From a marine gamma proteobacterium HTCC2148 (GTDB taxonomy: Bacteria; Pseudomonadota; Gammaproteobacteria; Pseudomonadales; Halieaceae), in the NCBI GenBank assembly GCA_000156295.1, contig DS999222.1, positions 462,349 through 515,253 of the forward strand: DNA of 52,905 nt, in the 5' to 3' direction. Under the pieces are notes generated by a model, which searched no databases, had not been told where the DNA came from, and worked only from the letters and a program-made list of their open reading frames with translations. The position numbers and the translations under genes are program-made. Of this stretch, positions 34,864 through 51,105 are shown piece after piece (position 1 is the stretch's first letter; the number at the start of each line of letters is the position of its first letter).

Positions 34864-36750
34864 TTAGGTCTGCTCCTCCACCGACCTCCAGGCCGCATCA
34901 AATGCCGCATCCATCAGCGCGATGGCTTCCGAATCTGTGTTGGCGATAGAGATACGCCCGAACTGGGCTCTGCCGATTTCGTGGGGCGCCTGACCATCTT
35001 CCCACTCGGGGTCGTCCAGAGCGAGGTAGGGATAGGAGTAGCCGTGGGGAATGCGGTTGACGGTGATGGCGCAAATATCCCGCTCGTGTTTGAAACCGTG
35101 CTGGCCGAGCATGGATTGTAACTGCTCACGAATCTGCTGCTCGTAAGTGGCGAAAGGTGTGCTGTACACGCGGTGGCGTCCCATCCGCAGCTGGTCGCGA
35201 CCTAAACCCTGCTCTTGGGTCTTAGTCATGGGGGAGTTCATCATGAAGACCACCATGGGGTCGTCTGGCCCCCGTGGGGGCTCGTAGCCACCAACGCTCA
35301 TGCCGGGTGCACTGCTCACCCATTGAAACGGGTCATGGGGGCACTGGAATATCTGTGCGCCCAGCTTGTCGTAGGCTAGGCCATTATCCAGTTGCACGTT
35401 GGCATAGACGAAAGGGGTTTTTACACCGTATTGGAGGCCTTCTTTCTGGGCCTCTGGCAATTCCGGGCAGAGGTGTGGGATCAGTGCATTGTAGCATGCC
35501 ATGATACAGTGGTTGGCGGTGATACGCAGTGCCTGGCCCTTTTGCACGTAATCGACCTCCACATGCTTTCCATCAATCTCGCGTGCACCCACCACGGTGC
35601 TGTTTAAGCGAATACGGGTGGGCTGGTTGGCGCGATCCAGAGCATCGTAGTTAAATCGCGCAACAGCAACGTCCTCTGGGCCCTGCATGTCTGTCGCAAC
35701 TGCAGGCACAAGATTCTTCACGATAAGGCGGGCCACGGAGGCATTGCCATCGGGAAACATTTTGACGTTCAGCAGGCTGTCGATGAATGCACCGGCGATG
35801 GATGCAGAGGTACGGGCCAGCCAGCCTAGCGATTTTATGCCGGGGCCACCCTGGGTGATGGCCTCCAGTACGCTGAGGTTCCAGCCGGACATGCCTGTAT
35901 TGTGCACCAGTATTGAGTTCATCACCGGCAGCGATGTTTCGTCGAGCTTAACGCGATCAAGCAGGAAGCGGTTGTAACTAACGGTGTTGATGTATGTCCA
36001 CGTTTTGCTGAGTGACATGTCATCTAAAAAGTCGCGCTTGCCGCCAAAGAAGTCGATGAACTTATCCTGTTCGCTACTGGGCAGGGGCAGGGTGCGCACA
36101 TATTTTTCGTAGCCCTCGCCGCCGAATATCGTGGCTAACCAGTTGCCGGCCAATGTCGTATGACCATCAGGCCCGGGAAGCGAGATCCCATTCGGCTCTG
36201 TCATTTCACCTCCCAGAAATTGGTCAGCTGGTGTATTCGCGCCCATGCTGGTAACGAATCCCTCATCGATACCGATAGCGCGCATTAGGCTAGAAGCCGC
36301 TTTGCTATAGCTCTCCGGATTCATAAGGTTTTGTGCGCCCCCCAGGCTTAACATCATTCTGTCGCCCTGGTGGAACTCGTTGCGCTTGGCGTGGCCGCCG
36401 AAATCGTCGTGATTATCCATTATCACGATTCTGGCATCGGGCCCCATTTTCTTCTGGTAGAAATGGGCAGCGGCCAGGCCGCTCATGCCAGCGCCAACAA
36501 CGACCAGATCGTAGTGTTCATCCAGAGGCTTGTATTGGGACGGCTTTTCACCGCGCCAGGCAAGCGCATGCGCCACTTCGAATGACCCCTCGTGGCTGCC
36601 CCGCATGCCGGTCAGAGTGGGTGGATAATAGGTTGGGGTCGTTGTCCCTGTGCTGGCATGCAGGCTCGCCCCATGGCTCTGCAGCAGCATGCCGCCTGCA
36701 CCAATCGCAACACCATTCAAAAAATCCCGCCGCGTTACCTGTATGGCCAA
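34864..36750 (-). CDS. Tat-exported FAD amine oxidase-like protein (spermidine dehydrogenase-like)
   Basis: 628 residues from a TTG at 36750 placed seven bases after GGAG; an ATG at 36774 in frame has no ribosome binding site. The N-terminus has a twin-arginine signal (TRRDFLNGVAIGAGGMLL), then YPPTLTGMRGSHEGSFEVAH. The FAD-binding VVVGAGMSGLAAAHFY lies at about 84-99 and ends in an IVIMDN acidic strand. This resembles SpdH-type spermidine dehydrogenases of Pseudomonas, although substrate identity is unproven. The gene is driven by copy 1 of the shared 60-bp promoter. Confidence 0.82.
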   Translation of the reverse strand: MAIQVTRRDFLNGVAIGAGGMLLQSHGASLHASTGTTTPTYYPPTLTGMRGSHEGSFEVAHALAWRGEKPSQYKPLDEHYDLVVVGAGMSGLAAAHFYQKKMGPDARIVIMDNHDDFGGHAKRNEFHQGDRMMLSLGGAQNLMNPESYSKAASSLMRAIGIDEGFVTSMGANTPADQFLGGEMTEPNGISLPGPDGHTTLAGNWLATIFGGEGYEKYVRTLPLPSSEQDKFIDFFGGKRDFLDDMSLSKTWTYINTVSYNRFLLDRVKLDETSLPVMNSILVHNTGMSGWNLSVLEAITQGGPGIKSLGWLARTSASIAGAFIDSLLNVKMFPDGNASVARLIVKNLVPAVATDMQGPEDVAVARFNYDALDRANQPTRIRLNSTVVGAREIDGKHVEVDYVQKGQALRITANHCIMACYNALIPHLCPELPEAQKEGLQYGVKTPFVYANVQLDNGLAYDKLGAQIFQCPHDPFQWVSSAPGMSVGGYEPPRGPDDPMVVFMMNSPMTKTQEQGLGRDQLRMGRHRVYSTPFATYEQQIREQLQSMLGQHGFKHERDICAITVNRIPHGYSYPYLALDDPEWEDGQAPHEIGRAQFGRISIANTDSEAIALMDAAFDAAWRSVEEQT

Positions 36751-36780
36751 CTGTGATCTCCAAATGCTTTGCATGCTCTG

Positions 36781-36798
36781 TCATGTCACCCGACATGA
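36781..36798. promoter_or_regulatory. Inverted repeat in the 5' leader of the flavoprotein gene
   Basis: TCATGTC and GACATGA form perfect 7-bp arms around a 4-bp loop. It lies between the predicted -10 box (36818-36823) and the TTG start, so it could be a leader hairpin or an operator. Confidence 0.4.
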
Positions 36799-36817
36799 CA
36801 TGATCTCTCTACCCTAT

Positions 36818-36877
36818 ATTATCGTGGGCGGAAAGTGGCCACCATGATGAAAGAGGCAGAACTTAATCAAAGCGGAC
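36818..36877 (-). promoter_or_regulatory. Shared 60-bp promoter module, copy 1 (flavoprotein gene)
   Basis: Reading towards the flavoprotein gene it begins GTCCGCTTTGATTAAG and ends in GATAAT. 57 of 60 positions match copy 2. Box 1 and box 2 have the same 19-bp period as in the other copies, and the -10 hexamer is 39 bp after TTGATTAA. It is divergent from copy 2. Confidence 0.8.
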
Positions 36878-36888
36878 GCGGGTCTGTA

Positions 36889-37047
36889 TTAACGATAGTT
36901 TAATTGCCAGTACTTACGGCCCATTTTGGATGCTTCCAAGCATAGGTCGCGCTCATTGTTGGGGCTGAACATTACAGCAATCTCCGGATAAGTACGTTCA
37001 ATGATTGAGAGGTGGTAGTGGCCTGATGATGAATGGCCGAACTCCAT
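36889..37047 (-). pseudogene. Short unrecognised ORF or gene remnant between divergent promoters
   Basis: 52 codons from an ATG at 37047 to TAA, with stops closing the frame upstream. The reading (MEFGHSSSGHYHLSIIERTY, later ASKMGRKYWQLNYR) looks like the C-terminal end of a protein rather than random frame, but I do not recognise the family. The rest of the 585-bp divergent region contains promoter copies 1 and 2 and nothing else I can name. Confidence 0.3.
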
Positions 37048-37198
37048 TCGTTTACAAAGTTAATTTGTCATACCTGTACCTAAAAAGTGTAAGCGAACCT
37101 AATAATTACTATTGGTAACCGCAATGCGTTGATCTGTTTTTATGCGCCTTTGGTCGTGCAAATTAATATTTCGGACCATGCTGTGTCGATAGAGGCGC

Positions 37199-37258
37199 GT
37201 CCGCTTTGATCAAGTTTTGCCTCTTTCATCATGGTGGCCACTTTCCGCCAACGATAAT
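37199..37258 (+). promoter_or_regulatory. Shared 60-bp promoter module, copy 2 (TonB receptor gene)
   Basis: Begins GTCCGCTTTGATCAAG; box 1 is 37202-37214 and box 2 (CTCTTTCATCATG) is 37221-37233. The -10 hexamer GATAAT lies at 37253-37258. Box 2 overlaps the place of the missing -35 hexamer. The TonB receptor starts 78 bp downstream. Confidence 0.82.
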
Positions 37259-37335
37259 ATTGAGTATCCGCAGTGTCGTGATCATGAACATTGCAGCCGA
37301 TTATTAATAATTATTTCAATAGAGGTTATATCCGT

Positions 37336-39486
37336 ATGAAAAATAAGATAAACGGCCTACAAAAATCTTTCATTGCCATTGCCGTATCCAGCGTGATGGC
37401 GCCCATGTCGGCGTATGCACAACTAGAGGAAGTCGTAGTTACCGCACAAAAACGCGAGCAGAACCTCCAGCATGTGCCCGTTGCTATAAGTGCAGTCACT
37501 GGAGAAATGCTTGAGAAAACCGGTATCAATACCATTACCCAACTCATACCCATGGTGCCCGGGCTCACTGGGTCGGATTACGGGCTTGCGCAAAATTCGT
37601 GGGCGATTCGCGGTATTAGCAGCAATGACGGGACCATTGGTTCAGAGCATTCGGTAGGTGTGTTTTTTGACGACGCCTATGTGGGCCGCAACATGTTTGC
37701 CACCGGTACGTTCTTCGACCTCAACCGTATTGAAGTGGTTAAGGGCCCGCAGGGCACTCTGTTTGGTCGCAACTCTTCTGCCGGGGCCATTAGTTTGATA
37801 AGTAACAAGCCCGGTGATGAGAATGATTTAAGGCTTGGAGTTGCCCTGGGTGACGAGGGGCAGGTACGGTATGAGGTTGTGGGTAATCTTGCTGTCAGTG
37901 ATTCCTTTGCGTTGCGTCTCGCCTATCAGGGGCAGAAATGGGAAGGGATGTGGAAAGAAATCAACAGTGGTGAAGATATGTACACGGAAAGCGATACAGT
38001 GCGCCTTATGGCTCGCTGGAACGTAACTGATAACGTTGAAGCCCTATTTCGTGCCAACTACAGCAACGCCGAGACGAACTATACCAGTGCCGCGAACATT
38101 GCACTCAACGTCGCGGCGCCTGGGGTGGAGTATCCCGACAAGTTTGCACTCAACAATCCAAATTATGAGGAAGTCGAGGATGACGGTTTTGGGATACGTC
38201 TTATCTGGGATATCAATGATTCGCTGACATTGGTTTCTATTACTGATGCGCGCAGTGGAGAGGCCAGCTTTCATGAAGACGCCGATGGCACTGCAGATGA
38301 TGCTGGCTTTGATGCCGCTTTTGGCCCGGTCACCGGCGGGCTCACAGTCCCCTTTGACAGTGAAGATAGCGCGGACACTATGTATCAGGAATTTCGGCTC
38401 TCTGGTGGCTCAGATTCTCTCTCCTGGTTCGCGGGGGTGAGTTATTACTCTGAAGATATGGAGGCCCCAGATTATAGAACCGAAATCATTGATACCGCCC
38501 TTGGCCTCGGTACTCTCCTAGCCACGCATATCGCGAATAATGCCGACAACGAGTCTTATGGCGTATATGCAGATGCCACCTGGAACGTGAGTGAAAAGTT
38601 AGCCCTGATAGGTGGACTGCGCTGGAGTTACGATGACAAGGACTGGTGCTCCAATACACTGCAAGACAGTATAGGACTCGGAGGTGGGGCGACAGACGGC
38701 AAGTTGTGCAGTAATGAAACCTGGGATGAATGGACACCGCGCGTTGTAGCGCAGTACGACATTGGCGACGATGCGATGATTTTCGCAAGTGTAGCAAAAG
38801 GCTATAAAGGTGGTGGTTTTAATCTCGGCGCAGCAGACACCAACGACGATCGTATGGGCGACACGATCGTGCCCTTTGATCCCGAAACCAGCATCGCCTA
38901 TGAGCTTGGCCTCAAATCGACATTGTTAGACGGCCAGGCTCAGCTGAACGGCTCGATATTCTACACCGACTACGACGACTTACAGATGCAGAGCTTAACG
39001 CTTGCGTACGGACAGGTGATATCTAACGCCGGGACTGCTGAGTCCAAGGGCCTTGAGATGGAGTTCTCCTATTCACCGGTGGAGAATCTGGTGCTGATGG
39101 CCAACTTTGCCTATCTCGATGCCGAGATTACCGATGGTGATTTGGAGGGCAATAAACTGGCCTATGCACCGGAGAATACTTTCTCAGCCGGGGTTAACTT
39201 CGACCACAGCTTCCTGGCCGGGGATCTCAATTGGTTCGCTCAGTACACTTGGACGGATGACTTTGCCCACCAGGCAGATGACGTTATTAACTTGGAAGAC
39301 GCTTACGGCTTGCTCAATGGCAAAGTGACTTACACGGCCGAAAGCGGCCGCTGGGACCTGGCGATCGCGGCGGACAACATCACCGATGAGGGCTATGCAG
39401 CTGTTCGTTACGATCTCGGCGCGGGAGAGCAAATTCACTGGGGCTTTAAGCGCATGGTAAGGGCGGAGTTTAATATCCACTTCTGA
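37336..39486 (+). CDS. TonB-dependent outer membrane receptor
   Basis: 716 residues from the ATG at 37336, with a signal peptide ending SAYAQ. The N-terminal LEEVVVTAQKREQNLQHVPV is the TonB box plus plug start, and VEVVKGPQGTLFGRNSSAGA is the plug signature. The C-terminus ends in MVRAEFNIHF, a typical terminal beta-strand. This subfamily is common in Sphingomonadales and marine gammaproteobacteria with sterol or aromatic catabolism. It heads a run of same-strand genes and has promoter copy 2 directly upstream, suggesting substrate-inducible uptake. Confidence 0.95.
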   Translation: MKNKINGLQKSFIAIAVSSVMAPMSAYAQLEEVVVTAQKREQNLQHVPVAISAVTGEMLEKTGINTITQLIPMVPGLTGSDYGLAQNSWAIRGISSNDGTIGSEHSVGVFFDDAYVGRNMFATGTFFDLNRIEVVKGPQGTLFGRNSSAGAISLISNKPGDENDLRLGVALGDEGQVRYEVVGNLAVSDSFALRLAYQGQKWEGMWKEINSGEDMYTESDTVRLMARWNVTDNVEALFRANYSNAETNYTSAANIALNVAAPGVEYPDKFALNNPNYEEVEDDGFGIRLIWDINDSLTLVSITDARSGEASFHEDADGTADDAGFDAAFGPVTGGLTVPFDSEDSADTMYQEFRLSGGSDSLSWFAGVSYYSEDMEAPDYRTEIIDTALGLGTLLATHIANNADNESYGVYADATWNVSEKLALIGGLRWSYDDKDWCSNTLQDSIGLGGGATDGKLCSNETWDEWTPRVVAQYDIGDDAMIFASVAKGYKGGGFNLGAADTNDDRMGDTIVPFDPETSIAYELGLKSTLLDGQAQLNGSIFYTDYDDLQMQSLTLAYGQVISNAGTAESKGLEMEFSYSPVENLVLMANFAYLDAEITDGDLEGNKLAYAPENTFSAGVNFDHSFLAGDLNWFAQYTWTDDFAHQADDVINLEDAYGLLNGKVTYTAESGRWDLAIAADNITDEGYAAVRYDLGAGEQIHWGFKRMVRAEFNIHF

Positions 39487-39541
39487 GAGTCTGCCAACGC
39501 AACTCATGAACAGGAGAATTGCTCATAAGGAGTAACTCGGC

Positions 39542-40330
39542 ATGAAAAGCACTATTACCAGTCGCTACTTTTTGAACGGCTGGCCTCTTTTTTTCCTGAT
39601 TGCAGCGCTGACTTTCGCCTGCATGATAGCTGGCTTGGTTTTGATTGGTACCTCCACGCCAGAGGCCACCGTCGAGCTGATTCGGCTGTCGGTACAGCTC
39701 GCATCTCCCTGGGTCTTTATCGCCTTTGTCACCTCGCCCTTGCAACAACTTTTTCCCGGTAGCGTATCAAAATGGCTTGCTCGCAACCGCCGTTACACGG
39801 GATTATCTTTCGCTGCTGGGTTCGGTTGGCAGGCGGTATGCATCGCTGCGTTATTTGCATTGCACCCTTCCTATTATGGGGAGCAATTACACAACACGGT
39901 CGACCTGATTGGACGCATTGCTAGCTATATTTTTTTGATCGCTATGACTGTCACTTCATTTTTTTCGGTGCGCCGAAAAATGCGCCCTGAGCATTGGCGC
40001 TGGCTACATTTGGTGGGCATATGGTATTTCTGGGCGGTAATTTGGACGACCTATGCCGAGCATGCGTTGAGCAGTGCAGTTAGAACGATTGACGTGGTGT
40101 ACACGGTCATGGGACTGCTTGTGCTTTTTCTTCGTATTGCCGGCTATCTAAAATTCCAGGCCGGCCAGCGCATTCAAAAAACTGGCGGCCTAGCACATAA
40201 AAGTTTTTTTCATAACAGTAGAGATGGTTGGCTAAGTGTTAGAGTATATCCACTCACAGCAGTTTCTATTTGCACTGGCGTGCAGCCCTTGATGGGTTTA
40301 CCTGCTCACCTTTTTAGAAAAAAATTTTAG
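39542..40330 (+). CDS. Ferric reductase-like integral membrane protein
   Basis: 262 residues with a strong AAGGAG ribosome binding site 55 bp after the TonB receptor. About six hydrophobic segments are seen. RNRRYTGLSFAAGFGWQ and WRWLHLVGIWYFWAVIW resemble the YedZ/ferric reductase-like transmembrane domain, although one of the usual haem-ligating histidines (in the GLSFAAGFGW segment) is not evident. Possible role: a cytochrome b-like partner in electron transfer for the exported flavoprotein or for oxygenases. This is contextual inference. Confidence 0.6.
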   Translation: MKSTITSRYFLNGWPLFFLIAALTFACMIAGLVLIGTSTPEATVELIRLSVQLASPWVFIAFVTSPLQQLFPGSVSKWLARNRRYTGLSFAAGFGWQAVCIAALFALHPSYYGEQLHNTVDLIGRIASYIFLIAMTVTSFFSVRRKMRPEHWRWLHLVGIWYFWAVIWTTYAEHALSSAVRTIDVVYTVMGLLVLFLRIAGYLKFQAGQRIQKTGGLAHKSFFHNSRDGWLSVRVYPLTAVSICTGVQPLMGLPAHLFRKKF

Positions 40331-40340
40331 AGAGATTACT

Positions 40341-41129
40341 ATGACTTTTAAATGTATTAAGTTCGATAGGCAGGACGGCGTAGCTCATATCGAATTGATC
40401 CGACCTGAAAAAGCCAACGCTATCGATCCGACCCTTTCTGCAGAGTTACATGAGGTGGCAAAACAGTGTAGCAACGACGTGGAAACTCGCGCGGTTTTGT
40501 TGTCCGGTGCCGGGCCTATATTCTGTGCGGGGGGAGACCTTGAGGCCTTTGCTGCTTTCGGAGCAGCGCTTCCCAGTGCCATGGAAGATATGTTGCAGGA
40601 CTTCCACCCGGCGATTGAGCTTTTGTCTGCTATGAATGCCCCCGTAATCACTGCAGTGACCGGCGTGGCCTTCGGAGGAGGTTTGTCCCTGGTTCTTGCC
40701 AGCAGTTTCGTTGTAGCCGCCAGCGATGCGCGCTTTTCCGTGGCCTATACCGGAGCAGGACTAACCCCGGATGGCGGCGCTACCTATTACTTACCACGGA
40801 TAGTGGGGTTGCGCCGGGCGGAGGAGATGATGGTTACCAATCGCCAGCTGTCTGCAGAAGAAGCCATGGATTGGGGTATCGTCAATCAGGTCGTAGAAAC
40901 CTCAGATCTTATGGAGAAAGCTCAGGCTATGGCTGCAAGACTGGCCAAAGGACCAACAGCTGCGTTTGGCGGTGTCCGTAGGATGTTGCTGCAAAGCTTT
41001 GACAATGACCTGCACTCTCAGCTTGGACTAGAGGGGAAGTCTATTGTCGAGCTGGCCGCCTCCAAAGATGGCCAGGAAGGGATTCGCGCTTTTAGCGAAA
41101 AGCGCAGACCTGTCTTTACTGGCAATTAA
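40341..41129 (+). CDS. Enoyl-CoA hydratase/isomerase
   Basis: 262 residues, starting 10 bp after the membrane protein. Crotonase features are LIRPEKANAID, the oxyanion-hole segments AGPIFCAGGDLEAF (about 57-70) and VTGVAFGGGLSLVLA (about 107-121), and GLTPDGGATYYLPRIVG with an aspartate in place of the usual catalytic glutamate seen in some isomerase-like members. Likely beta-oxidation of a ring or side-chain CoA ester. Probably cotranscribed with the TonB receptor. Confidence 0.9.
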   Translation: MTFKCIKFDRQDGVAHIELIRPEKANAIDPTLSAELHEVAKQCSNDVETRAVLLSGAGPIFCAGGDLEAFAAFGAALPSAMEDMLQDFHPAIELLSAMNAPVITAVTGVAFGGGLSLVLASSFVVAASDARFSVAYTGAGLTPDGGATYYLPRIVGLRRAEEMMVTNRQLSAEEAMDWGIVNQVVETSDLMEKAQAMAARLAKGPTAAFGGVRRMLLQSFDNDLHSQLGLEGKSIVELAASKDGQEGIRAFSEKRRPVFTGN

Positions 41130-41155
41130 CCCCCGCTCAGAGCAGCCGCGTCTAC

Positions 41156-41220
41156 TAGACAGCTGATTACCAGACAACTGCCTACTAGACAGCTGCCTAC
41201 TAGACAGCTGCCTAGTAGAC
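41156..41220. repeat. 15-bp tandem repeat (4.3 copies)
   Basis: Units 41156-41170, 41171-41185, 41186-41200 and 41201-41215 are variants of TAGACAGCTGCCTAC, followed by a five-base partial unit. Each unit carries a CAGCTG or near-palindrome. It fills the gap between the hydratase stop and promoter copy 3. Confidence 0.85.
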
Positions 41221-41224
41221 GCGT

Positions 41225-41284
41225 GTCCGCTTTGATCAAGTTTTGCCTCTTTCGTCATGGTAGCCATTTTCCACTCAAGATAAT
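41225..41284 (+). promoter_or_regulatory. Shared 60-bp promoter module, copy 3 (nitronate monooxygenase gene)
   Basis: Begins GTCCGCTTTGATCAAG, identical to copy 2 over the first 29 bases; 53 of 60 positions match overall. GATAAT lies at 41279-41284, again 39 bp after TTGATCAA. The coding region starts 88 bp downstream. Confidence 0.82.
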
Positions 41285-41371
41285 ATTAAGTAAATAAATC
41301 ATGAATCGATGGAGTGTTGTCATTCTGATTGGTGTTGATTTACCTTCTCACTTTGACGCAAGGATATTGAA

Positions 41372-42340
41372 ATGAAAACACGTATTACAGAGTTGTTGGG
41401 CATCGAGCATCCGATTATTCAGGGTGGCATGCACCATGTGGGTCTTGCCGAGTTAGCGGCTGCGGTTTCCAATGCGGGCGGTCTGGGTATTATTACCGGC
41501 CTAACGCAGGGCACTCCGGAAAAGCTGTCGGCAGAAATTGCTCGCTGCAAAACCATGACCGATAAGCCGTTTGGTGTGAACATCACTTTTCTTCCCACTA
41601 CGACACCTCCCGATTATCCCGGCCTAATTCAGGCTGTGATTGACGGCGGCGTGAAGGTTGTTGAGACAGCAGGTAATAACCCAGCGACTTATATGCCAGC
41701 CTTAAAAGAGGCAGGCATTGTTGTGATTCATAAGTGCACTGCGGTACGTCACGCGCTTAAAGCTCAGTCAGTGGGCTGTGATGCCGTGTCTGTGGACGGT
41801 TTTGAATGTGGCGGTCACCCGGGTGAAGACGATATTCCCAATTTTATTTTGTTGCCAAGAGCGGCGGATGAGCTGAGTATTCCGTTTGTATCCTCTGGCG
41901 GTATGGCCGATGCACGTAGTCTGGTTGCCTCGCTGGCAATGGGTGCTGAAGGCATGAATATGGGTACGCGTTTTATAGCGACTCAGGAAGCGCCTGTCCA
42001 CGAAAATGTGAAGGCAGCGATTTTAGCGGCGACTGAATTAGATACTCGCTTAGTGATGCGTCCATTGCGCAATACCGAACGCGTACTTAACAATGAAGCG
42101 GTTGGGCGCTTACTTGAAAAAGAAAAAGCTCTAGGTGCGGATATTAAAATTGAAGATATTCTTCCTGAAGTGGCCGGCTGCTATCCAAAGATTATGAAAG
42201 ACGGTGATATGGATGCGGGTGCCTGGTCTTGCGGTATGGTGGCGGGTCTGATTCACGATGTACCTACGGTGAAAGAATTAATTGACCGTATTATGTCTGC
42301 AGCGGATACCCTGATTAAGGAACGTTTGGCCGGCTTGTAA
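41372..42340 (+). CDS. Nitronate monooxygenase-family FMN oxidoreductase
   Basis: 322 residues. LGIEHPIIQGGMHHVGLAEL at the N-terminus, VSNAGGLGIITG, DGFECGGHPGED (catalytic histidine region, about 142-153) and SSGGMADARSLVASLAMGAEGMNMGTRF show the FMN-binding TIM barrel of the 2-nitropropane dioxygenase/enoyl-reductase group. Many such genes in degradation clusters act as enoyl-CoA reductases or quinone reductases rather than on nitronates. First gene of a unit with the acyl-CoA dehydrogenase. Confidence 0.9.
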   Translation: MKTRITELLGIEHPIIQGGMHHVGLAELAAAVSNAGGLGIITGLTQGTPEKLSAEIARCKTMTDKPFGVNITFLPTTTPPDYPGLIQAVIDGGVKVVETAGNNPATYMPALKEAGIVVIHKCTAVRHALKAQSVGCDAVSVDGFECGGHPGEDDIPNFILLPRAADELSIPFVSSGGMADARSLVASLAMGAEGMNMGTRFIATQEAPVHENVKAAILAATELDTRLVMRPLRNTERVLNNEAVGRLLEKEKALGADIKIEDILPEVAGCYPKIMKDGDMDAGAWSCGMVAGLIHDVPTVKELIDRIMSAADTLIKERLAGL

Positions 42341-42404
42341 TAGAGCGCGTATACCTACTTAAATAAAAAAACTGGCCAGCTATTTAGAGTCGATCAGGTG
42401 CAAT

Positions 42405-43565
42405 ATGCGAACATTTACTGAAGAACAAAACATGTTTCGGGATACTTATCGCAAGTTTCTTGAAGTCGAGATTGTTCCCAATATGGAAAAATGGCAGGAA
42501 CAGGGCATTGTTGATCGTGAGGCTTTCAAAAAGGCGGGCGATCGCGGATTTCTGATGATCTGGCCTGATGAGCAATACGGTGGTGTGGGTGATACGGATT
42601 TTCGTTTTGAGCAAATCATCATTGAGGAAACCGCCAGAGTTGGGTGTGCATCATGGCTAAATACGTTGCACAGCCGTCTGGTCGGTAATTATATTCAGCA
42701 TTTTGGAAATGACGAGCAGAAACAGCGTTTCTTGCCCGGATGCATAACGGGTGAAAAAATTCTGGCTATTGCTATGACTGAGCCCGATGCCGGTAGTGAT
42801 TTGGCAGGTATGCGCACAACCTTGTGTGAGGATGAGAATCATTTTATTTTGAGTGGCTCCAAGACCTATATTTCGAACGGTATCAATGCGGATTATGTTG
42901 TGGTTGCGGGCAAGTCTGACCCTGAAAATAATCCACACGCGATGACTCTTTGTATTGTTGAGCGAGGCATGGAAGGTTTTGAGCGTGGACGAAATCTCGA
43001 TAAGATGGGCATGAAAGCTCAGGACACGGCGGAGCTATTCTTTAGTAACGTCAAGATTCCTAAAGAGAATATTCTTGGCGAGCCGGGCAATGGTTTTTTC
43101 TATCTGATGCAGGGTCTCGCAGAAGAAAGGTTGATCGCGGCTGTGGGTTCCATTGCCACTGCGCGCCGAGCCTTTAATCTTACTCGTGAATTCGTTATGG
43201 AAAGGCAGGTATTTGGTAAGCCTCTGTCCTATATGCAGAATACACAGTTTAAAATGGCAGAGATGGATGCCGAGATTGAAATTCTGGAAATCTTTATTGA
43301 TCATCTTGTGGCGGAACACAATGAAGAAAGGCTAACGGCTAACATGGCCGCCAAGGCGAAGCTTCAATCAACTGAAATTGAATGGAAGATGCTTGATTTA
43401 GGTGTACAGCTGCACGGAGGTGCGGGTTACATGAAGGAATACCCTATCTGTAATATGTTCACCGACGCGCGTATAAACCGCATCTTGGCGGGCAGTTCCG
43501 AGATCATGAAGCTGATTATCAGTCGTGACATTTTTTCTGAAAACTATAGTAGTAACCTTGACTGA
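42405..43565 (+). CDS. Acyl-CoA dehydrogenase
   Basis: 386 residues, standard length. Motifs are AMTEPDAGSDLAGMRTTL (about 124-141), the FAD loop YISNGINAD, GEPGNGFFYLMQGL, and the C-terminal LGVQLHGGAGYMKEYPICNMFTDARINRILAGSSEIMK. The region before RIGxxY-type residues (YMKEYPI) carries the catalytic base in this class. It oxidises an acyl-CoA to the 2-enoyl form with electrons to ETF. It follows the nitronate monooxygenase by 64 bp. Confidence 0.93.
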   Translation: MRTFTEEQNMFRDTYRKFLEVEIVPNMEKWQEQGIVDREAFKKAGDRGFLMIWPDEQYGGVGDTDFRFEQIIIEETARVGCASWLNTLHSRLVGNYIQHFGNDEQKQRFLPGCITGEKILAIAMTEPDAGSDLAGMRTTLCEDENHFILSGSKTYISNGINADYVVVAGKSDPENNPHAMTLCIVERGMEGFERGRNLDKMGMKAQDTAELFFSNVKIPKENILGEPGNGFFYLMQGLAEERLIAAVGSIATARRAFNLTREFVMERQVFGKPLSYMQNTQFKMAEMDAEIEILEIFIDHLVAEHNEERLTANMAAKAKLQSTEIEWKMLDLGVQLHGGAGYMKEYPICNMFTDARINRILAGSSEIMKLIISRDIFSENYSSNLD

Positions 43566-43580
43566 TAAGAGAATTGATTA

Positions 43581-43640
43581 ATGGATATTAACGGTAAAGT
43601 TGCCATCGTCACGGGTGGTGGCAAATGTAATAGAGTATAA
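43581..43640 (+). pseudogene. N-terminal fragment of an SDR gene
   Basis: Fifteen bases after the dehydrogenase stop, an ATG opens MDINGKVAIVTGGGKCNRV and then a stop. The first 15 residues are an SDR start with the TGGG cofactor loop; the remaining 230-odd residues are missing. A deletion relic. Confidence 0.7.
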
Positions 43641-43644
43641 AACC

Positions 43645-43815
43645 ATGACTGATTTTGAGAGAATCAATTACACGGTGACCAACAGTGTTGCCACTATTCA
43701 GCTGAACCACCCTAAAGCCATTGCGGGGACGGGGACGCCGATGACGTTGTCGGCCAACGAAGAAACTTCCGCTTTGCTGGAGGAAATTGTTGTTATCCTC
43801 AGGAGCGCAGTCTGA
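43645..43815 (+). pseudogene. Enoyl-CoA hydratase N-terminal fragment fused to an unrelated tail
   Basis: Reads MTDFERINYTVTNSVATIQL then NHPKA, the start of a crotonase. It then continues as 30 residues (TLSANEETSALLEEIVVILR) that do not fit the family. The TGA overlaps the ATG of the next gene. A chimeric deletion product; it may still be translated and couple translation of the LLM gene. Confidence 0.6.
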
Positions 43816-44864
43816 TGAAACTAACCATTGGAGTTGGTGACTATCGAAAAATAGGCATTGAAGAAACGATAGAATATATCCAGTTTGCAGAAAAAATAGG
43901 CATCGACAGCGTGTGGTCTGCCGAGGCATGGTCCACCGATGCGGTGACATCTCTAGCGTTTATTGCCGCGCGTACCAGCAAGATAAAGTTAGGCAGTGGT
44001 GTAATGCAGGTGGGGCCCAGGGCACCCAGCATGATAGCGATGACAGCCCTGTCTTTAAACGCGCTGTCAAAGGGTCGCTTTTTGTTGGGTCTAGGTGCTA
44101 GTGGCCCGCAAGTTATTGAAGGCTTGGTCGGTGTACCTTATAACGAGCCATTGACGCGTCTCAGGGAAACCGTTGAAATCTGCCGTATGGCCTTTGCCGG
44201 TGAAAAAATCATTTATGAAGGTAAGCATCATGTGTTACCCCGCCCCGGCGGAGAAGGTAAAGCCTTGCGTCTGGACTTTGCACCCGCTGAAATCCCGATC
44301 TATCTAGCAACGCTCGGCCCTCGTTCACTTCAATACACCGGTGCCGCAGCGGATGGCTGGATGGGCACAAGCTTCTCACCGATTCATGCCGGCGCTCACC
44401 TGGACTATATAGCGCAGGGCGCGGAGGACGCCGGCCGAGAACTGTCGCAGTTAGACCTTGGTGCCGCGGTAACGATCGGTATCAGCGATAATATCGAAGG
44501 GTTAATTGCCAGCAGAAAACCGGGCTTGGCTTTTCAGATAGGTGCCATGGGTTCAGCGGACACTAATTTCTACAATAAGGCCTTCGAGAGAGCGGGTTAT
44601 ACAGAAGATACCAAGGCGGTACAAGCACTTTGGCTGGCAGGAAAAAGGGAGAAAGCTGCACTGCGTATACCCGATGCAATGATCAACGAATTCCAGGTAC
44701 TGGGAACGGCGGAGATGGTGCGCGCAAGGCTAATGAGCTATAAGCAGGTCGGTATGAAAAGCCTTAATCTGCGCCTCGATATTGCAAAAACAATGAAAGA
44801 AAGAATGGCGCTACTGGAACAAATCGTCGATATCGTAAACAGTTTACCCAAGGTTGGCCATTAG
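43815..44864 (+). CDS. LLM-class F420-dependent oxidoreductase (Mer-like)
   Basis: 349 residues with AGGAG upstream of the ATG. Features are IGIDSVWSAEAWSTDAVTSL at about 29-48, KIKLGSGVMQVGPRAP with its cis-peptide region, GRFLLGLGASGPQVIEG and PIYLATLGPRSLQYTGAAADGW. These match the F420-dependent glucose-6-phosphate dehydrogenase/Mer-like branch. Substrate unknown; catabolic neighbours suggest reduction or oxygenation of a ring compound. Whether the cofactor is F420 or FMN cannot be decided here. Confidence 0.88.
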   Translation: MKLTIGVGDYRKIGIEETIEYIQFAEKIGIDSVWSAEAWSTDAVTSLAFIAARTSKIKLGSGVMQVGPRAPSMIAMTALSLNALSKGRFLLGLGASGPQVIEGLVGVPYNEPLTRLRETVEICRMAFAGEKIIYEGKHHVLPRPGGEGKALRLDFAPAEIPIYLATLGPRSLQYTGAAADGWMGTSFSPIHAGAHLDYIAQGAEDAGRELSQLDLGAAVTIGISDNIEGLIASRKPGLAFQIGAMGSADTNFYNKAFERAGYTEDTKAVQALWLAGKREKAALRIPDAMINEFQVLGTAEMVRARLMSYKQVGMKSLNLRLDIAKTMKERMALLEQIVDIVNSLPKVGH

Positions 44865-45060
44865 TCGAAAAGTAAAGAATGCAAGTATGACCAGCGAGGC
44901 ATAAAAAACTTGAAGGTGTGATGATTCGTGGCAAGTCGAACTCAACCCTATTGAGTGTCATGGAGCTATCGGAGTGATTATTATGAAGTGTATTTATACC
45001 TGATTAGTAAGACATATTTTATAAAAATACTTAGATAGTTTTATTAAATAGAGGTGTAAT

Positions 45061-45770
45061 GTGCCAATAAAAAGATGGTCTTTTAGCCGCGAGTTGGCGT
45101 TGATGGCTAGTATTTCATTGACTTCGACCTCAATTGTTTCCACCGCGGCTGTTGGTGATTTTGCCGATTTAATTTTTACTAATGCAAAGATATATACGGT
45201 AGATACGTCTAAACCGTGGGCGCAGGCTGTCGCAATAAAGGACGGTCGTTTTGTGTATGTCGGTGATAATGAAGGTGTAGAGAAATGGATAGGTTCAAAA
45301 ACTGAGAAAGTAGATTTGGGCGGCAAGTTTGTGTTGCCCGGCCTAGTCGATTCACACACCCACCCTGGGATGAGCGCAGTTTATTCCGAGATGACCACCA
45401 TGCCTTTTACCGATTTAACTGGCATGCCCTACACGAGCCGACAAGACACGGTAGCATGGCTTAAAAAATTCTCCAAAGAAAATCCTGATCGAACTGCCAT
45501 AGTTGCTGGTTCTTGGCGAGTTGCAGACTTTGGCCCCGAAGGCCCCAATAAAAGAGAACTAGATGAAATTGTTAGTGATCGCCCTGTGATTCTGATGGAG
45601 CAATGGGGGCACAGCCAGTGGAAGATCAGCTCGGCTCTATTGAGGCAGGGAAGAAGGCGGACATGGTGGTGTTAAGTGATAATCTGTTTGAAGTAAATCC
45701 TTATGAGCTATACAAAGTTAAAGTTGAAACGACATTGTTGGAGGGTGATGTAGTATTTAATTTACATTGA
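45061..45770 (+). pseudogene. YtcJ-like amidohydrolase with large internal deletion and frameshift
   Basis: From a GTG at 45061 the frame gives a signal-like segment, then the N-terminal part of an amidohydrolase (LPGLVDSHTHPGMS holds the HxH site) up to GHSQWKISSALL. From about 45629 a different frame continues as LGSIEAGKKADMVVLSDNLF and the family C-terminus, ending at 45770. Some 350 residues of the catalytic barrel are missing between, so the product cannot work. Confidence 0.8.
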
Positions 45771-45959
45771 AAATAGTGCTACCACAGCTATTGGTACCGA
45801 TGCAGTAATGCGCCACCTTAGTGAGTGTGGGATTTTTGGAGTGGATTAATAATCCGTCTAGCCACTTAATATAGATTGGATAGGCACTGGCGTGAGGACA
45901 ATTTTCATATGAATACAGTTAGACGTAATTACGCTCAGTTGTTAAGCCGATTGCAGAAT
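45771..45959 (+). other. Short stretch with possible gene scraps
   Basis: No gene is supported here. Short protein-like scraps (NSATTAIGTDAVMRHLSECG near the start; DRHWREDNFHMNTVRRNYAQ near 45879) hint at further decayed genes but are too short to name. Confidence 0.3.
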
Positions 45960-46538
45960 ATGAATAAATATAATTTTAAAAAAATTTTTTTTTCAGCTTT
46001 ACTGCTAGCTATAGCAGGTCAAAAAAATGTTGTTTATGCCCAAGATTCATTCTGTTCTAAAAATAATTTCGTTCAACACCTAGAGGGTAATTAGAAATCA
46101 ATTTTTTACGCTCCTGATGAGGGTGAAGTGTTGGGTTACTCGGATACTTACATTACAAATATAATAAGCGTTTTAGATAGTAGAGGGAGTCAATCCAATG
46201 AGATTTTAAGGGCCAATAATTGGACTCAATTTCAAACATACACGATGATGTGTGATCCCGCTAATAGAGGTTACAAGCTCTTATTTATGGATATTGTATC
46301 TAATGTTTTAAGCGTAGATCTATATGTGGGAACACCTAAGGATAATGTATTCTCGTTTGAGAATATGACAACTTAAATTGATCCAAAGTCTATAGAGAAA
46401 AACGAATTCTGGAAAATTAGAGCTAATATTATGGATAATGATCACTTTCAGCTGTATGGGGCCTCAACTATTGATGAACGGAAAAACTGGATTCCTGCTG
46501 CCAAAATTGAATATTTTAGGGAGGCTCTTATTGATTAA
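45960..46538 (+). pseudogene. AT-rich secreted protein interrupted by two in-frame stops
   Basis: From ATG 45960 a signal peptide (FKKIFFSALLLAIAGQ) leads into one continuous frame of 192 codons broken only by TAG at 46092-46094 and TAA at 46374-46376. The reading on both sides of each stop is protein-like (YKLLFMDIVSNVLSVDLYVG; later NWIPAAKIEYFREALID). No frameshift is needed, so the inactivation looks recent. Base composition is clearly more AT-rich than the surroundings. Family unknown. Confidence 0.6.
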
Positions 46539-46711
46539 GTATGATCCTGCCCACCAACAGCGTACACCTCGCTAAGCGGCTTTTTTACCTCAAATGCTTC
46601 TGGGCTGATAACGACAGCAAAAGAGAAAATACCATCCATGAGCCCCCGCCTTATACTTACATCTGCTGTACGTAATTTATCTCCATGGCCATAGGGTCGT
46701 TTGTACGCCTG
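46535..46711 (-). pseudogene. C-terminal remnant of an unidentified gene
   Basis: A minus-strand frame without an early ATG reads 58 codons, including YGHGDKLRTADVSIRRGLMD and FAVVISPEAFEVKKPLSEVY, ending in TAA at 46535-46537. The composition is protein-like but I do not recognise it. Probably another deletion relic in the decayed stretch. Confidence 0.3.
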
Positions 46712-46740
46712 CTATCTTCAATTCATCAGTTTGCTATCGT

Positions 46741-49293
46741 TCACCCTCTTAAAAAATGCTTAAGTTCATGGTACTTTAGTAAAACTTTCATGGCTGAATT
46801 TATGGCCAATGTTCTTCCCTTCTGTTGAATAGCACCTGCTTCTTTTTTCCTTATCTCTAGATCGCCACTCGCGATTAATGTGTCAATCTCAATATCTGAC
46901 AGGTCAATAAGCGTACTCATTAATTCGCGAGTATGTTCAGCAAGGGCGGGGGCGGGCTGAATTTGAGGTGGCGGAATGTTGTCACTAAAAGCGACGGGGC
47001 CATTTTCGGTCTCAATTGTTCGTCCGACTGTGGGTTGGTGCAGCTTCTGAAAGAAATTCCGAGCATTGTAGTGGGGATTTTCTATGAACTCTGACAAACG
47101 AAGCATGTTTCCTGCTGGTACTTCCTGGTTCTGACAAAGATTCATAACCTCATAGGGGGATCTCGGCTTGCACCATCGGGTGACGATATCCTCAATATCG
47201 ATACGATGTTCGAGTCGACCTTCCGTAGTCTGGTAATTCGTATTGTCGGCAAGGTCGGCCCTGTTCATAGCGCGGCATAACCCCTGCCATTGATCATCAT
47301 TGGTTACCGAAATTACGCACCACTCATCATTGCCTGCGCAGGGATAAAGGCTGTTTGGTGCATCAAATGCAGACTGATTTCCCGTTGACTTTAATGAGCC
47401 AGGTGCAATGGATTCACCAAGGAATTCGCTGGCAAGCGCGTTGATTATGCATTCTGCCTGAGATGTATCAATAAATCCGCCCACTGCTGTTGTCTTTCGC
47501 TGAATAAGTTTAGCCAAAATAGCTGTTGCACTGACTCTTGCGGCGAAGTGATCCGGAAAGATGGTTACACAGTCACCAAAGCCCATTTCTTTTTCAGGGT
47601 ATCGCCAAAGGCCCGACAGAGCGGTGCTTGCCCTCACCAAAGGCCCATAACCCATGGTCCTGGCTTGAGGGCCGGTACTGCCCATTGCGCTGCTTTCGGC
47701 GCAAATAATACCAGGGTTGATCTCTCTTAATGCCTCATACCCTAAGCCCAGAGATTCCATAGTGCCGGGTTTGAAGTTGGAGATAACTACGTCGGCATCT
47801 TTGGCCAAGCGTAAAAAAATTTCTTTTCCTTTATCGCTACGCAGGTTGAGCCCTAACGATTTTTTATTTCGATTGGCTTGAGCAAATGAGATGGGAACGG
47901 GATTGTTGTCAAGACTCTGGCGAAGTCCATCAGGGTAGGCCTTGTTTTCGACTTTGATCACGGTTGCGCCCTGATCGGCAAACAGCCGGCCCAGATCACC
48001 ACCTGCGATGATAACACCAATGTCCAATACTAATATTCCCCCTAAGGGTCTTCTCGACTCTCCCTCGGTTACCCGTAAAGGGTCTTTCATCTTCGCGCTC
48101 GACAATAGGTCTTGAGTATTGGCACCGAGTTTCGGTGCCAGAGTATTGATACCTATTCGCCGTCCATCGATACAGAAATAACCCGAAGGGGCTTTAGCCT
48201 TTTTTCCTCCGATGTCGATTTTAGTGAATAAGTTGCGCTGGTCGAAGTGATCGTTATCAAATACTTCACTGGGAAGTTTGATCGATGCAATGGGTATGCC
48301 TCGTTTTTGTCCTTCGGCGACTAAATGCTCACGGGTCTGATTCTCGAAGAGGCTGGCCATTAATTTATTGACGGCACCAATATTCAGAACACGGTTTGCA
48401 GCGACCCCAAACTTGGGGTGTGTAAACGGGTGATCAGGGCCAAGCCACTCAGACATACTTCGCCACTGCCTTGGGTTTAGAACACAGGTTCTGATATGGC
48501 CATCAGTACATTTGAATATCGGGTAGAGCAGGGCCGCAGACGGCAGTTTTCCGGGAATGAAGTTAACTTCGGGTCTGCCATGAGGCGCGACCTCTATGGC
48601 TGTGCGTCCAGCGGATACGTTCCCGGTTGCGCCGACACCTGGATCGAAGGTTTGCGCTATTGCATCATTGATCGAGAAATCCAGTAAATCTCCCTTGCCA
48701 TTGTGTGATCTCTGCCAGTATGCCAGCAACGCAACCCAGGCCGCTTGAATGGCGGCGGTTTCCAGCGCTAGCTCACCAGGTGGCAATAGGGGAGGGGAGC
48801 CGTTAGTTCCAGATCGGGATAGAACGGTAGACATCGCCATATGAACAGATTCAGTGGCAGTGAAATCTTTATAAGGACCTTTTAGCCCGAAATCCGTGAT
48901 CGAAAGTAAAATAAGGTCAGGATAAATGCTTCGTAGCTCAGAATGACTTGTACTCAGCATTTCCCAAATACTTTTGTCACCGCCATCAATCAGCATGTCA
49001 CTGTTTCTAACAAGCTTGAGAAAATCCTTTTTTCCTTCCTGACTTTCAAGGTCTAGCTGCACACTGAATTTGTTGGCATTATGTGTGGCGAAATACAGAC
49101 TCTGTGAATCGACAACTGGTGCTCTAAGTCGAGATAACATACCTTCAGGAGGTTCTACAAGAATGACTTCTGCGCCCAGGTCGGCCAATATGCGACCACA
49201 GCTTTGCCCTCGAAGATCGCAAAGGTCGAGTACACGAATACCGGTTAATGGCAGTTGACTGTCTGGCGGGGGGGGGGGTCTGCTGAGTTGCAC
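46741..49293 (-). CDS. Double class III CoA-transferase (CaiB/BaiF), two fused domains
   Basis: 850 residues, about twice a single CaiB. Both halves start alike: LTGIRVLDLCDLRGQSCGRI near residue 17 and LGGILVLDIGVIIAGGDLGR near 412. Both keep an aspartate in the expected catalytic place (LLDFSINDA, FIDTSQAE). Such pseudo-dimers move CoA to carboxylic acids. The GTG start at 49293 is supported by AGAGG six bases upstream. Immediately after it comes an 11-C tract encoding RPPPPP. It follows the monooxygenase gene by 67 bp and is probably in its operon. Confidence 0.9.
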   Translation of the reverse strand: MQLSRPPPPPDSQLPLTGIRVLDLCDLRGQSCGRILADLGAEVILVEPPEGMLSRLRAPVVDSQSLYFATHNANKFSVQLDLESQEGKKDFLKLVRNSDMLIDGGDKSIWEMLSTSHSELRSIYPDLILLSITDFGLKGPYKDFTATESVHMAMSTVLSRSGTNGSPPLLPPGELALETAAIQAAWVALLAYWQRSHNGKGDLLDFSINDAIAQTFDPGVGATGNVSAGRTAIEVAPHGRPEVNFIPGKLPSAALLYPIFKCTDGHIRTCVLNPRQWRSMSEWLGPDHPFTHPKFGVAANRVLNIGAVNKLMASLFENQTREHLVAEGQKRGIPIASIKLPSEVFDNDHFDQRNLFTKIDIGGKKAKAPSGYFCIDGRRIGINTLAPKLGANTQDLLSSAKMKDPLRVTEGESRRPLGGILVLDIGVIIAGGDLGRLFADQGATVIKVENKAYPDGLRQSLDNNPVPISFAQANRNKKSLGLNLRSDKGKEIFLRLAKDADVVISNFKPGTMESLGLGYEALREINPGIICAESSAMGSTGPQARTMGYGPLVRASTALSGLWRYPEKEMGFGDCVTIFPDHFAARVSATAILAKLIQRKTTAVGGFIDTSQAECIINALASEFLGESIAPGSLKSTGNQSAFDAPNSLYPCAGNDEWCVISVTNDDQWQGLCRAMNRADLADNTNYQTTEGRLEHRIDIEDIVTRWCKPRSPYEVMNLCQNQEVPAGNMLRLSEFIENPHYNARNFFQKLHQPTVGRTIETENGPVAFSDNIPPPQIQPAPALAEHTRELMSTLIDLSDIEIDTLIASGDLEIRKKEAGAIQQKGRTLAINSAMKVLLKYHELKHFLRG
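49268..49278 (-). repeat. 11-base C homopolymer at the 5' end of the CoA-transferase gene
   Basis: Eleven consecutive G on the plus strand (C on the coding strand), starting 15 bases inside the coding region. A one-base slip would shift the frame near residue 9 and abolish the protein. Confidence 0.9.
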
Positions 49294-49360
49294 TACCTAC
49301 CTCTGACTTGGCTGCGTGAAAATATCCAATAGAATTAGATTTGTATTTTGTATATAAAGG

Positions 49361-50893
49361 TTACGCGACCGCAGCAACTTTCTTCTTTTTATTAGTATTT
49401 TCCGTTTTTATAGGAAATTTTTTAGTTATAAAGTCACCCATTTTCGGTTCTTTCATTTCCTTTTTCCACTGCTGCCAGCTGTATGGCCAAAGGGCAGGGT
49501 CGCCATCATCATCTAGGTACCAACTTTGGCAACCTCCCACCCAAACCGTTTTCGACATACCCGCTTTTAAGTATTCATTAAAGCTTTTAAATGCCGATGG
49601 CTTAACATCAATTTCGTCGAAATCTCCCTGCTGCCAGCGACAGATAATCTTGAGAATATAGGCGCATTGCACTTCACTCATGGCAATGACGGAATAGTTG
49701 CCAATAGGGGTGTTGGGTCCCAGCATTAAAAAGGAGTTTGGGAAATTAGGTAAAAACATAGAGCGGTAGGCCTGAATCTTTTTTGACCAGGCGTCGTCAA
49801 TTTTCAAGCCTCCCTTGCCGCGCATGTCCATAGGTCGCATAAAGTTAAAGTTCTGGAAGCCAGTGGATAAAACTAATGCGTCCAGTTCATGTTCTTTACC
49901 ATCGCGTGTTTTAATGCCTTTCGGTGTGATTTCAGCAATGCCCTCGGTGACTAAATCTACATTGTTACGCTGGACAGCCTTATAAAAAGTTTTATTAACA
50001 ACAAGACGCTTACAGCCTACCGCATAGTCAGGGGTTAATTTCTTGCGCAGCGATTTATCTTTAATACTCAGTTTGAGGTTTAACTGACAGGTTACGCTCA
50101 ATAAGGCGCGCTGAGGTTGGTGACCAGCCGTTGCTTTGGTGAGTAAATTCGCCATCATCCAGACGTAAAGGCCTCTTAGGCGTCGTACGCGGTTTGGGTT
50201 GTCACGCAGCTTTTTTTTAGATTTTTCCGAAACAGTTTTATTGGCCCAAGGAAAAATCCATTGTGGTGTTCGCTGGAAGACCGATAGCTTACTTGCGGCT
50301 TTCGCTACTTCAGGAATAACTTGTGCTGCTGTTGAGCCGGTACCAATAACGCCAACCCTTTTACCTGCTAAATCAACAGTGTGATTCCACTCGGCGGTAT
50401 GAAACATATCACCATCAAAGGTTTCTATGCCTTTGATATCTGGTTTTGCAGGGTGGTGCAGAATGCCGGTGCAATTAATTATAAAATCGGCTATATAGGT
50501 GTTGCCCTTGGACGAGGTGACTGTCCATTGGCCCTCGTCATAAATGCTACGGGTGACCGCTTCATTGAACAGTACCTTTTCTGTCACGCCATACTTGCGA
50601 CCCACACGCTCGAAGTACTCCCTTATTTCTGAGCCATGAGCACACAGGTGAGACCATTCAGGGTTGGGCTCGAAGGAGTAGGTATACATGTGTGACGGTA
50701 CATCACAGGCAAGACCTGGGTAGGTATTTTCTCGCCAGGTGCCACCGAGGCTTTCCTTCTTCTCCAGAATGGTGATGTCGGTGATGCCAGCTTCTCTGAG
50801 CTTGATGGTCATCAGGATGCCGGTCATACCAGCACCGATAAGAATCACTTTAGGGCTTCGAAGTGGGAGCTTAGGTGGAGATAGGATAGTCAT
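49361..50893 (-). CDS. Flavin-binding Baeyer-Villiger-type monooxygenase
   Basis: 510 residues from the ATG at 50893, which has GAAGG seven bases upstream; the ATG at 50911 has none. Two Rossmann motifs (GAGMTGILM near 19; GVIGTGSTAAQ near 185) flank the Baeyer-Villiger fingerprint FDGDMFHTAEWNH (F-x-G-x-x-x-H-x-x-x-W). Further blocks are YPGLACDVPSHMYTYSF and FQRTPQWIFPW. It inserts oxygen next to a ketone using NADPH, fitting ring cleavage of a cyclic ketone. The C-terminus is lysine-rich (TENTNKKKKVAAVA). Under promoter copy 4. Confidence 0.92.
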   Translation of the reverse strand: MTILSPPKLPLRSPKVILIGAGMTGILMTIKLREAGITDITILEKKESLGGTWRENTYPGLACDVPSHMYTYSFEPNPEWSHLCAHGSEIREYFERVGRKYGVTEKVLFNEAVTRSIYDEGQWTVTSSKGNTYIADFIINCTGILHHPAKPDIKGIETFDGDMFHTAEWNHTVDLAGKRVGVIGTGSTAAQVIPEVAKAASKLSVFQRTPQWIFPWANKTVSEKSKKKLRDNPNRVRRLRGLYVWMMANLLTKATAGHQPQRALLSVTCQLNLKLSIKDKSLRKKLTPDYAVGCKRLVVNKTFYKAVQRNNVDLVTEGIAEITPKGIKTRDGKEHELDALVLSTGFQNFNFMRPMDMRGKGGLKIDDAWSKKIQAYRSMFLPNFPNSFLMLGPNTPIGNYSVIAMSEVQCAYILKIICRWQQGDFDEIDVKPSAFKSFNEYLKAGMSKTVWVGGCQSWYLDDDGDPALWPYSWQQWKKEMKEPKMGDFITKKFPIKTENTNKKKKVAAVA

Positions 50894-50996
50894 AGGTACA
50901 CCTTCAATCATATGGGCTGGTTATTAGGCTTGAATAAGATATTAGGCCATATCGCCTACGTAGATCATTCGAGTTCATTACCGGACATTCAGAAAT

Positions 50997-51056
50997 AGTA
51001 TCCCGATCACAGGCTTGTTAACATGATAAAGGTGGTCTTACTTGATCAAAGCGGAC
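50997..51056 (-). promoter_or_regulatory. Shared 60-bp promoter module, copy 4 (monooxygenase gene)
   Basis: Reading towards the monooxygenase gene, the first 17 bases equal copy 2 (GTCCGCTTTGATCAAGT). Box 2 is CACCTTTATCATG in the same register, and GATACT stands exactly where the other copies have GATAAT. The bases between are diverged (38 of 60 match overall), so conservation is confined to the boxes and the -10. Confidence 0.75.
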
Positions 51057-51105
51057 AGCTTTGATGCCGTTTATGTCGAACATAAGAGAAGATATATTCG
51101 GGGTA

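Follow-up and report, generated by a model that had tools for sequence, protein, structure and literature searches.

Why does one short promoter-like module recur in front of gene after gene in a small part of the chromosome of the marine gammaproteobacterium HTCC2148, and which protein would read it? The question arose in a window of 52,905 nucleotides (the whole stretch analysed, on contig DS999222.1, here C31, ending at C31:515253), where the initial annotation had described four copies heading four transcription units. All four are present at the positions and on the strands it gave, but the count of units has given way to nine: nine copies lie in a single 35-kb stretch, all within C31:499163-534045, with sites 1-4 inside the window and five further copies just to its right.

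Window 36816..36878, minus strand: site 1, half-site 1 at 36861-36878, half-site 2 at 36842-36859, -10 TAATAT at 36816-36821; into the SpdH-like gene
Window 37198..37260, plus strand: site 2, half-site 1 at 37198-37215, half-site 2 at 37217-37234, -10 TAATAT at 37255-37260; into a TonB receptor
Window 41224..41286, plus strand: site 3, half-site 1 at 41224-41241, half-site 2 at 41243-41260, -10 TAATAT at 41281-41286; into the nitronate-monooxygenase-family gene
Window 50995..51057, minus strand: site 4, half-site 1 at 51040-51057, half-site 2 at 51021-51038, -10 TACTAT at 50995-51000; into the Baeyer-Villiger-type monooxygenase
C31:516370-516433, minus strand: site 5, outside the window; into a second TonB receptor
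C31:517580-517643, plus strand: site 6, outside the window; into a second acyl-CoA dehydrogenase
C31:524323-524386, plus strand: site 7, outside the window; into GST-like and SDR-like fragments
C31:532511-532574, plus strand: site 8, outside the window; into an intact SDR
C31:533983-534045, plus strand: site 9, outside the window; into a thiolase-hydratase fusion

The geometry of the module, 18+1+18+20+TANNNT, is fixed in all nine sites. Two 18-bp half-sites form a direct repeat with 1 bp between them (period 19), and the self-identity of the boxes, on average 0.65 at shift 19 and never above 0.37 at the other shifts between 10 and 39, bears out the two boxes of 19-bp period originally described. 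Half-site 1 follows the pattern [TC]GTCCGCTTTgATcAAGT with the bipartite core GTCCG-N8-AAGT; half-site 2, the weaker match of the two, follows ..gCC.C.TTcaTCATG. with the core CC-N7-TCATG. The 39 bp from TTGATCAA (TTGATTAA in copy 1) to GATAAT or GATACT likewise hold in each of the first four copies. A -10 hexamer does stand at a fixed distance, as had been claimed, but its register is different: GATAAT or GATACT is exact in six of the nine sites (site 7 has AATACT, site 9 GATACC and site 8 neither), and the element conserved in all nine is TANNNT, two bases downstream (TAATAT, TACTAT, TACCCT or TATTAT). By inspection, none of the sites has a good -35 at the expected distance, and half-site 2, which ends 20 bp before the -10, thus covers the place of the missing -35. 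Every site has the layout of a class-II AraC-type promoter: bipartite half-sites in direct repeat, the second covering the -35 place at a constant distance from the -10. Each site also lies upstream of a reading frame in its own orientation: counting frames of 90 aa or more, the earliest possible start codon comes 32-248 nt after the GATAMT position ends. Site 8 overlaps an ATG frame above that minimum length (100 aa, opposite strand); the other eight sites overlap none.

The module appears to be confined to this stretch. A profile made from five copies and run over the whole 4.33-Mb genome, with 150 of 663 first-look candidates scored, recovered the nine sites at E ≤ 1.6e-10, all in C31:499163-534041, and the next match at E 0.41. 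Box 1, searched genome-wide with no or one mismatch, gave 15 matches, namely the nine sites and six elsewhere, and by eye no second box stands beside those six; 66 further matches carry two mismatches, the first few of which were read. The genome-wide scan suggested along with the first four copies has in this form returned promoter-positioned copies only. An extra match of the genome pattern search, on contig C27, has a different spacing and no second box and was rejected as a module. Across 330,270 bases of other HTCC2148 sequence (22 loci) the best pseudo-pairs reach 18 of 22 (three, all of period 21), and the nine sites 20-22; a looser half-site pair pattern was unspecific, with nine pairs in 314,270 background bases, one of them the true site on contig C24. 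Scanning related genomes, also suggested at the outset, came back empty: the module was found neither in 139 other genomes of the family (seven of the same genus included) nor in 368 others of the class, with part of the first-look candidates scored in both sets. Ten other family genomes gave one weak profile match each (17.3-19.6 bits), which we took as chance because seven of the ten have one coding-like string in common (by eye). Viral contigs contain no exact match.

The sites in the window, and the edge of the unit behind site 5, lead into the following genes.

34864..36774, minus strand: unit 1, flavoprotein like spermidine dehydrogenase SpdH (PDB 7d9f, E 3.1e-122; Tat-like N-terminus by eye)
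37291..39486, plus strand: unit 2, TonB-dependent receptor (mechanical TTG start; ATG at 37336 likelier)
39542..40330, plus strand: unit 2, membrane-type protein without Pfam match (weak MsrQ-like match, E 1.4e-4, below cut-off)
40341..41129, plus strand: unit 2, enoyl-CoA hydratase/isomerase family
41372..42340, plus strand: unit 3, nitronate monooxygenase family (closest PDB entry PA1024, 2gjl)
42405..43565, plus strand: unit 3, acyl-CoA dehydrogenase
43815..44864, plus strand: unit 3, luciferase-like monooxygenase family
46741..49293, minus strand: unit 4, CoA-transferase family III, two stretches in one 850-aa protein
49361..50911, minus strand: unit 4, Baeyer-Villiger-type flavin monooxygenase (best PDB matches cyclohexanone monooxygenases)
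51395..52903, minus strand: unit 5 (part), C-terminal part of the second TonB receptor, whose site 5 lies outside the window

The unit of site 9 encodes the thiolase-hydratase fusion, then a CoA ligase, an iron-type alcohol dehydrogenase and an aldehyde dehydrogenase. Operon extents in all nine units are inferred from spacing and strand. Our guess from the protein families (outer-membrane receptors, an amine-dehydrogenase-like flavoprotein, a Baeyer-Villiger-type enzyme, CoA chemistry) is that a lipid-like compound, cyclic or carrying an amine, is taken up and oxidised step by step.

Some genes and intergenic stretches of the island have features of their own. Downstream of site 7 (L009:4424-5474, C31:524423-525473), GST-like and SDR-like fragments lie in several frames, through either gene decay or errors in the sequence. 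The TonB receptor behind site 5 (L008:13744-16180, C31:513743-516179) is split into two frames at a short run of Ns, and since the break coincides with the Ns it is no evidence of decay. A 204-aa frame at window 45061-45675 matches part of Amidohydro_3 (profile 3-111 of 472) and is a fragment or a broken gene; L009:7681-9558 holds a longer amidohydrolase. A 15-bp tandem repeat (CTACTAGACAGCTGC-like, about five units) immediately precedes site 3, at window 41152-41226. Between the -10 of site 1 and the SpdH-like gene, window 36779-36800 is a perfect inverted repeat, TGTCATGTC-ACCC-GACATGACA, possibly a second, repressive control. Similar palindromes occur at an SpdH-like paralog on contig C27 (L094 4154 and 4180), adjoining a reading frame that by eye looks TetR-like.

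A candidate reader of the module is encoded in the midst of the island. The AraC-family gene at C31:516482-517516 (minus strand, 344 aa) is flanked by sites 5 and 6; site 6 points away from the gene, and 64 bp separate its half-site 1 from the gene's start codon. The protein matches Arabinose_bd (PF12625, E 4.5e-25) and HTH_18 (PF12833, the AraC-type C-terminal double helix-turn-helix, E 5.3e-15), both over cut-off, and stays below those of the NCBIfam models QhpR, CypR and GliR (159, 122 and 118 bits versus 250, 500 and 570). The genome holds 21 PF12625 matches, of which this is the sole one in the 35 kb; in the same search only two of 14 control genomes had matches, versus the 21 in this 4.33-Mb genome. 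Compared with 27 of 28 aligned paralogs, the regulator has one residue less between its two helix-turn-helix units. Among 389 other genomes of the order it had no match at E ≤ 1e-80, and a plasmid search matched 713 records, all below 60% identity. Two distant relatives from a scan of genome contigs had no half-site pairs. A TetR-family gene also lies in the island (C31:529569-530216), not adjoining a site; the domain search covered part of the island frames.

A counterpart of the operator exists in relatives. The regulator and the monooxygenase were each searched in 140 family genomes (own included), and genes of the two kinds turned up as divergent neighbours. Fifteen such loci were taken, 14 from relatives and one from contig C24 of HTCC2148; a sixteenth, in G025, was not included, its regulator being at a greater distance. 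The regulators are 34-39% identical to the island regulator and the monooxygenases 56-62% identical to that of the window. All 15 intergenic regions hold TGTCC[GT]-N8-AAGT (0.02 expected per set by shuffling), a second TG[TG]CC 21 bp on and TANNNT at offset 59. Between half-site 2 and TANNNT these loci have the same 20 bp as the window, whereas the half-site period is 21 versus 19 and the half-site tail differs (ATAAGT versus TCAAGT in the window). This footprint appeared only once the AraC and monooxygenase loci were paired; tandem-repeat scans around AraC paralogs with the window-type half-site were mostly empty.

A block search of the 140 family genomes, one mismatch allowed, gave one match in each of 17 genomes, and the reversed pattern none. 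Matches at the 15 loci arise by construction, and the new information is that none of these genomes has a second site. The other two genomes are G025 and G128. The AraC-monooxygenase locus of G025 has the boxes, with a TGACC head, and no TANNNT at the expected place; in G128 the block stands beside an AraC-like gene that is 25% identical. Three further AraC-paralog loci (G050, G045 and G128) have the same 21-bp geometry. AraC-paralog loci at L068 2559 (plus strand), L080 1197 (minus strand) and L148 4031 (plus strand) show 18+3+18+20+TANNNT with GGCC or GACC heads, and since they share the architecture, the operator code reaches beyond monooxygenase pairs. Across the sequences compared, half-site 1 is followed by the next NGNCC after a gap of 1 or 3 in 93 of 98 cases. 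Since some loci enter this set more than once, as overlapping copies, and most were picked for an AraC gene or the module, it is a description and not a test. Locus L072 of G026 (period 20) resembled the module, fits neither geometry and was dropped.

On sequence evidence we consider it probable, at roughly 0.85, that the module is a class-II AraC-type activator promoter and that the nine units form a catabolic island under one predicted AraC activator. A dimer of the AraC-family protein (C31:516482-517516) most likely binds both half-sites when a substrate or an intermediate is present, and would recruit sigma-70 RNA polymerase at the TANNNT promoters. The nine units would then be co-induced, among them two TonB receptors, the SpdH-like flavoprotein, the Baeyer-Villiger-type monooxygenase and CoA-transferase, acyl-CoA dehydrogenases, hydratase, thiolase and CoA ligase. 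With a common landing site and a probable activator encoded in their midst, uptake and breakdown genes could switch on together. In its spacing the operator is a variant of one that occurs a single time in each relative, where it lies between the paralogous regulator and the monooxygenase. Binding and activation, like the inducer and substrate of the regulon, are here what we infer. The initial annotation's view of tandem direct AraC-type boxes over the -35 place is strengthened by the AraC gene between two sites and by the paralogs' loci with the same architecture; these, together with a genome-wide scan returning promoter-positioned copies only, also favour its proposed regulon for uptake and oxidation; that all nine units act on one substrate, as it further proposed, would be conjecture.

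Could the same protein work the other way, mainly as a repressor, or as a repressor without and an activator with ligand, possibly looping between sites? Both modes are possible for AraC-type proteins, according to the portion of PMC8151288 consulted, and the regulator gene is flanked by sites 5 and 6. We nevertheless consider this unlikely, since half-site 2 stands at the class-II activator position and the lack of a good -35 at every site, as judged by inspection, would leave little unaided promoter activity to repress. Still less probable is that another regulator reads the tandem boxes, be it a global regulator encoded far away or the island's own TetR-family protein. Palindromes are the usual targets of TetR proteins, and box 1 by itself includes the palindrome TTGATCAA; box 2, however, is not palindromic, the repeat is direct, and the AraC-linked loci of relatives have the same architecture. 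A global regulator would be expected to have sites elsewhere in the genome, and the profile found none among the candidates scored.

That the module is a small mobile or freshly duplicated element without regulatory function we judge very improbable, even though copying is evident. Sites 1-3 and sites 4-7 plus 9 form two subgroups with near-identical modules and differing flanks, and a 300-nt duplication, 83% identical, takes in sites 4 and 5. Against such an element, MITE-like scattering regardless of gene starts was not seen: nine of nine copies stand at gene starts, co-oriented with a reading frame, within 35 kb, and the profile found none elsewhere in the genome among the candidates scored. 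Across subgroups mainly the half-sites and the -10 persist, the 20-bp spacer being conserved in position and not in sequence, and one conserved locus in relatives has a counterpart. The remark that copy 4 keeps only the boxes and the -10 is right relative to copies 1-3, but sites 4, 5, 6, 7 and 9 have most of the module in common. Selection had been set against recent duplication, and of the two only the exclusion of duplication fails: duplication and selection are both visible among the nine sites.

How did an AraC activator come to serve nine promoters? In 4-kb steps, G+C content is 44-48% from 504 to 540 kb versus 53.1% (s.d. 1.7) over 69 other steps. Two values speak against a clean island border: the steps that contain sites 1-3 have 51-52%, and a step at 468 kb, outside the regulon, has 47%. 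A paralogous cluster at G000:C27:16979-26122 holds two more SpdH-like genes, a TonB receptor and the same Pfam-less protein as unit 2. The two SpdH-like genes of the cluster have 84 and 49% identity. For the island genes, C27 paralogs match at 81% (SpdH-like), 67 and 64% (two parts of the TonB receptor) and 70% over 194 aa (third protein), and no module precedes the C27 copies. The search of 368 further genomes of the class gave no SpdH-like match at E ≤ 1e-100. The simplest order of events would be growth of the nine-site regulon from a single-site locus. We keep this conditional because a tree with long branches gives the island regulator no settled place, and its kinship with the 15 relatives' loci accordingly rests on 34-39% identity. 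More tentatively, and somewhat against the odds, the half-site spacing may act as an address: an ancestral period-21 operator could have come to serve the acquired catabolic island, lost 2 bp between its half-sites and multiplied to nine promoters while the regulator diverged, its shorter stretch between the helix-turn-helix units being a trace of this. If so, the island regulator and its C24 paralog would read a near-identical half-site without cross-talk, and the module-less C27 paralogs of units 1 and 2 would mark gene-by-gene capture into the regulon.

Among described systems, SphR, an AraC-family activator of P. aeruginosa, offers a close comparison, here based on parts of its paper (PMC3900636). 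It uses two direct 15-bp half-sites, TGNCCSNNRNNSNCC, with 6-8 bp between them; once the first TG is replaced by AA, induction is lost and binding falls strongly. Its operator and promoter share with ours direct half-sites with the head TGNCCS and a -35 far from consensus; SphR is divergent from a target, and its targets include a porin and a flavin oxidoreductase. In the island the TGNCCS head is complete in half-site 1 of seven of the nine sites (sites 1 and 2 begin CG) and incomplete in half-site 2. The SphR spacing of 6-8 bp (period 21-23) differs from the 4 bp (period 19) here, while the period of 21 in relatives does fit; its tail NNRNNSNCC is unmatched in the island half-sites, and it serves three promoters with sphingosine as inducer, against nine promoters in the island (PMC3900636). 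XylS at Pm resembles the module in its direct bipartite repeats, its proximal site over the -35, which the second repeat overlaps by two bases, and its role as catabolic-gene activator, but has the sequence TGCA-N6-GGNTA and belongs to another subfamily, according to sections of PMC4225500. GliR of P. aeruginosa is also AraC-type, with a site over the -35, and its NCBIfam model matches the island regulator below cut-off (E 7.1e-34); its motifs, in the portion of PMC8151288 consulted, are different (YYGGCGHTDTYSGMC and GGAYAWCGCCG). Direct repeats in excerpts of PMC5806209 are of a different sequence, and the site terms searched in PMC11784139 were not found. In open-licence PMC literature, the matches listed for TTTGATCAAG look unrelated by title, TTCATAAGTTTTTG has no match, and no such operator appeared among the papers listed on AraC with Baeyer-Villiger, VirS/mymA and ChnR, which is weak evidence of novelty because only open-licence PMC papers are covered.

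The principle of shared AraC-type operators is known, while this regulon and its unusual spacing appear new. The half-site code GNCC[GT]-N8-AAGT, with TANNNT 20 bp after the second half-site, would apply to a large, little-mapped AraC group and could be used to predict targets and build inducible promoters. Like the island, the AraC-monooxygenase loci of relatives combine a paralogous regulator, a homologous monooxygenase, GTCC[GT]-N8-AAGT and 20 bp from half-site 2 to TANNNT; unlike it, they have period 21 and one site per genome, versus period 19 and nine sites. A one-promoter operator in relatives, an altered spacing at nine promoters here and module-less paralogs together make the island a compact case of regulon growth.
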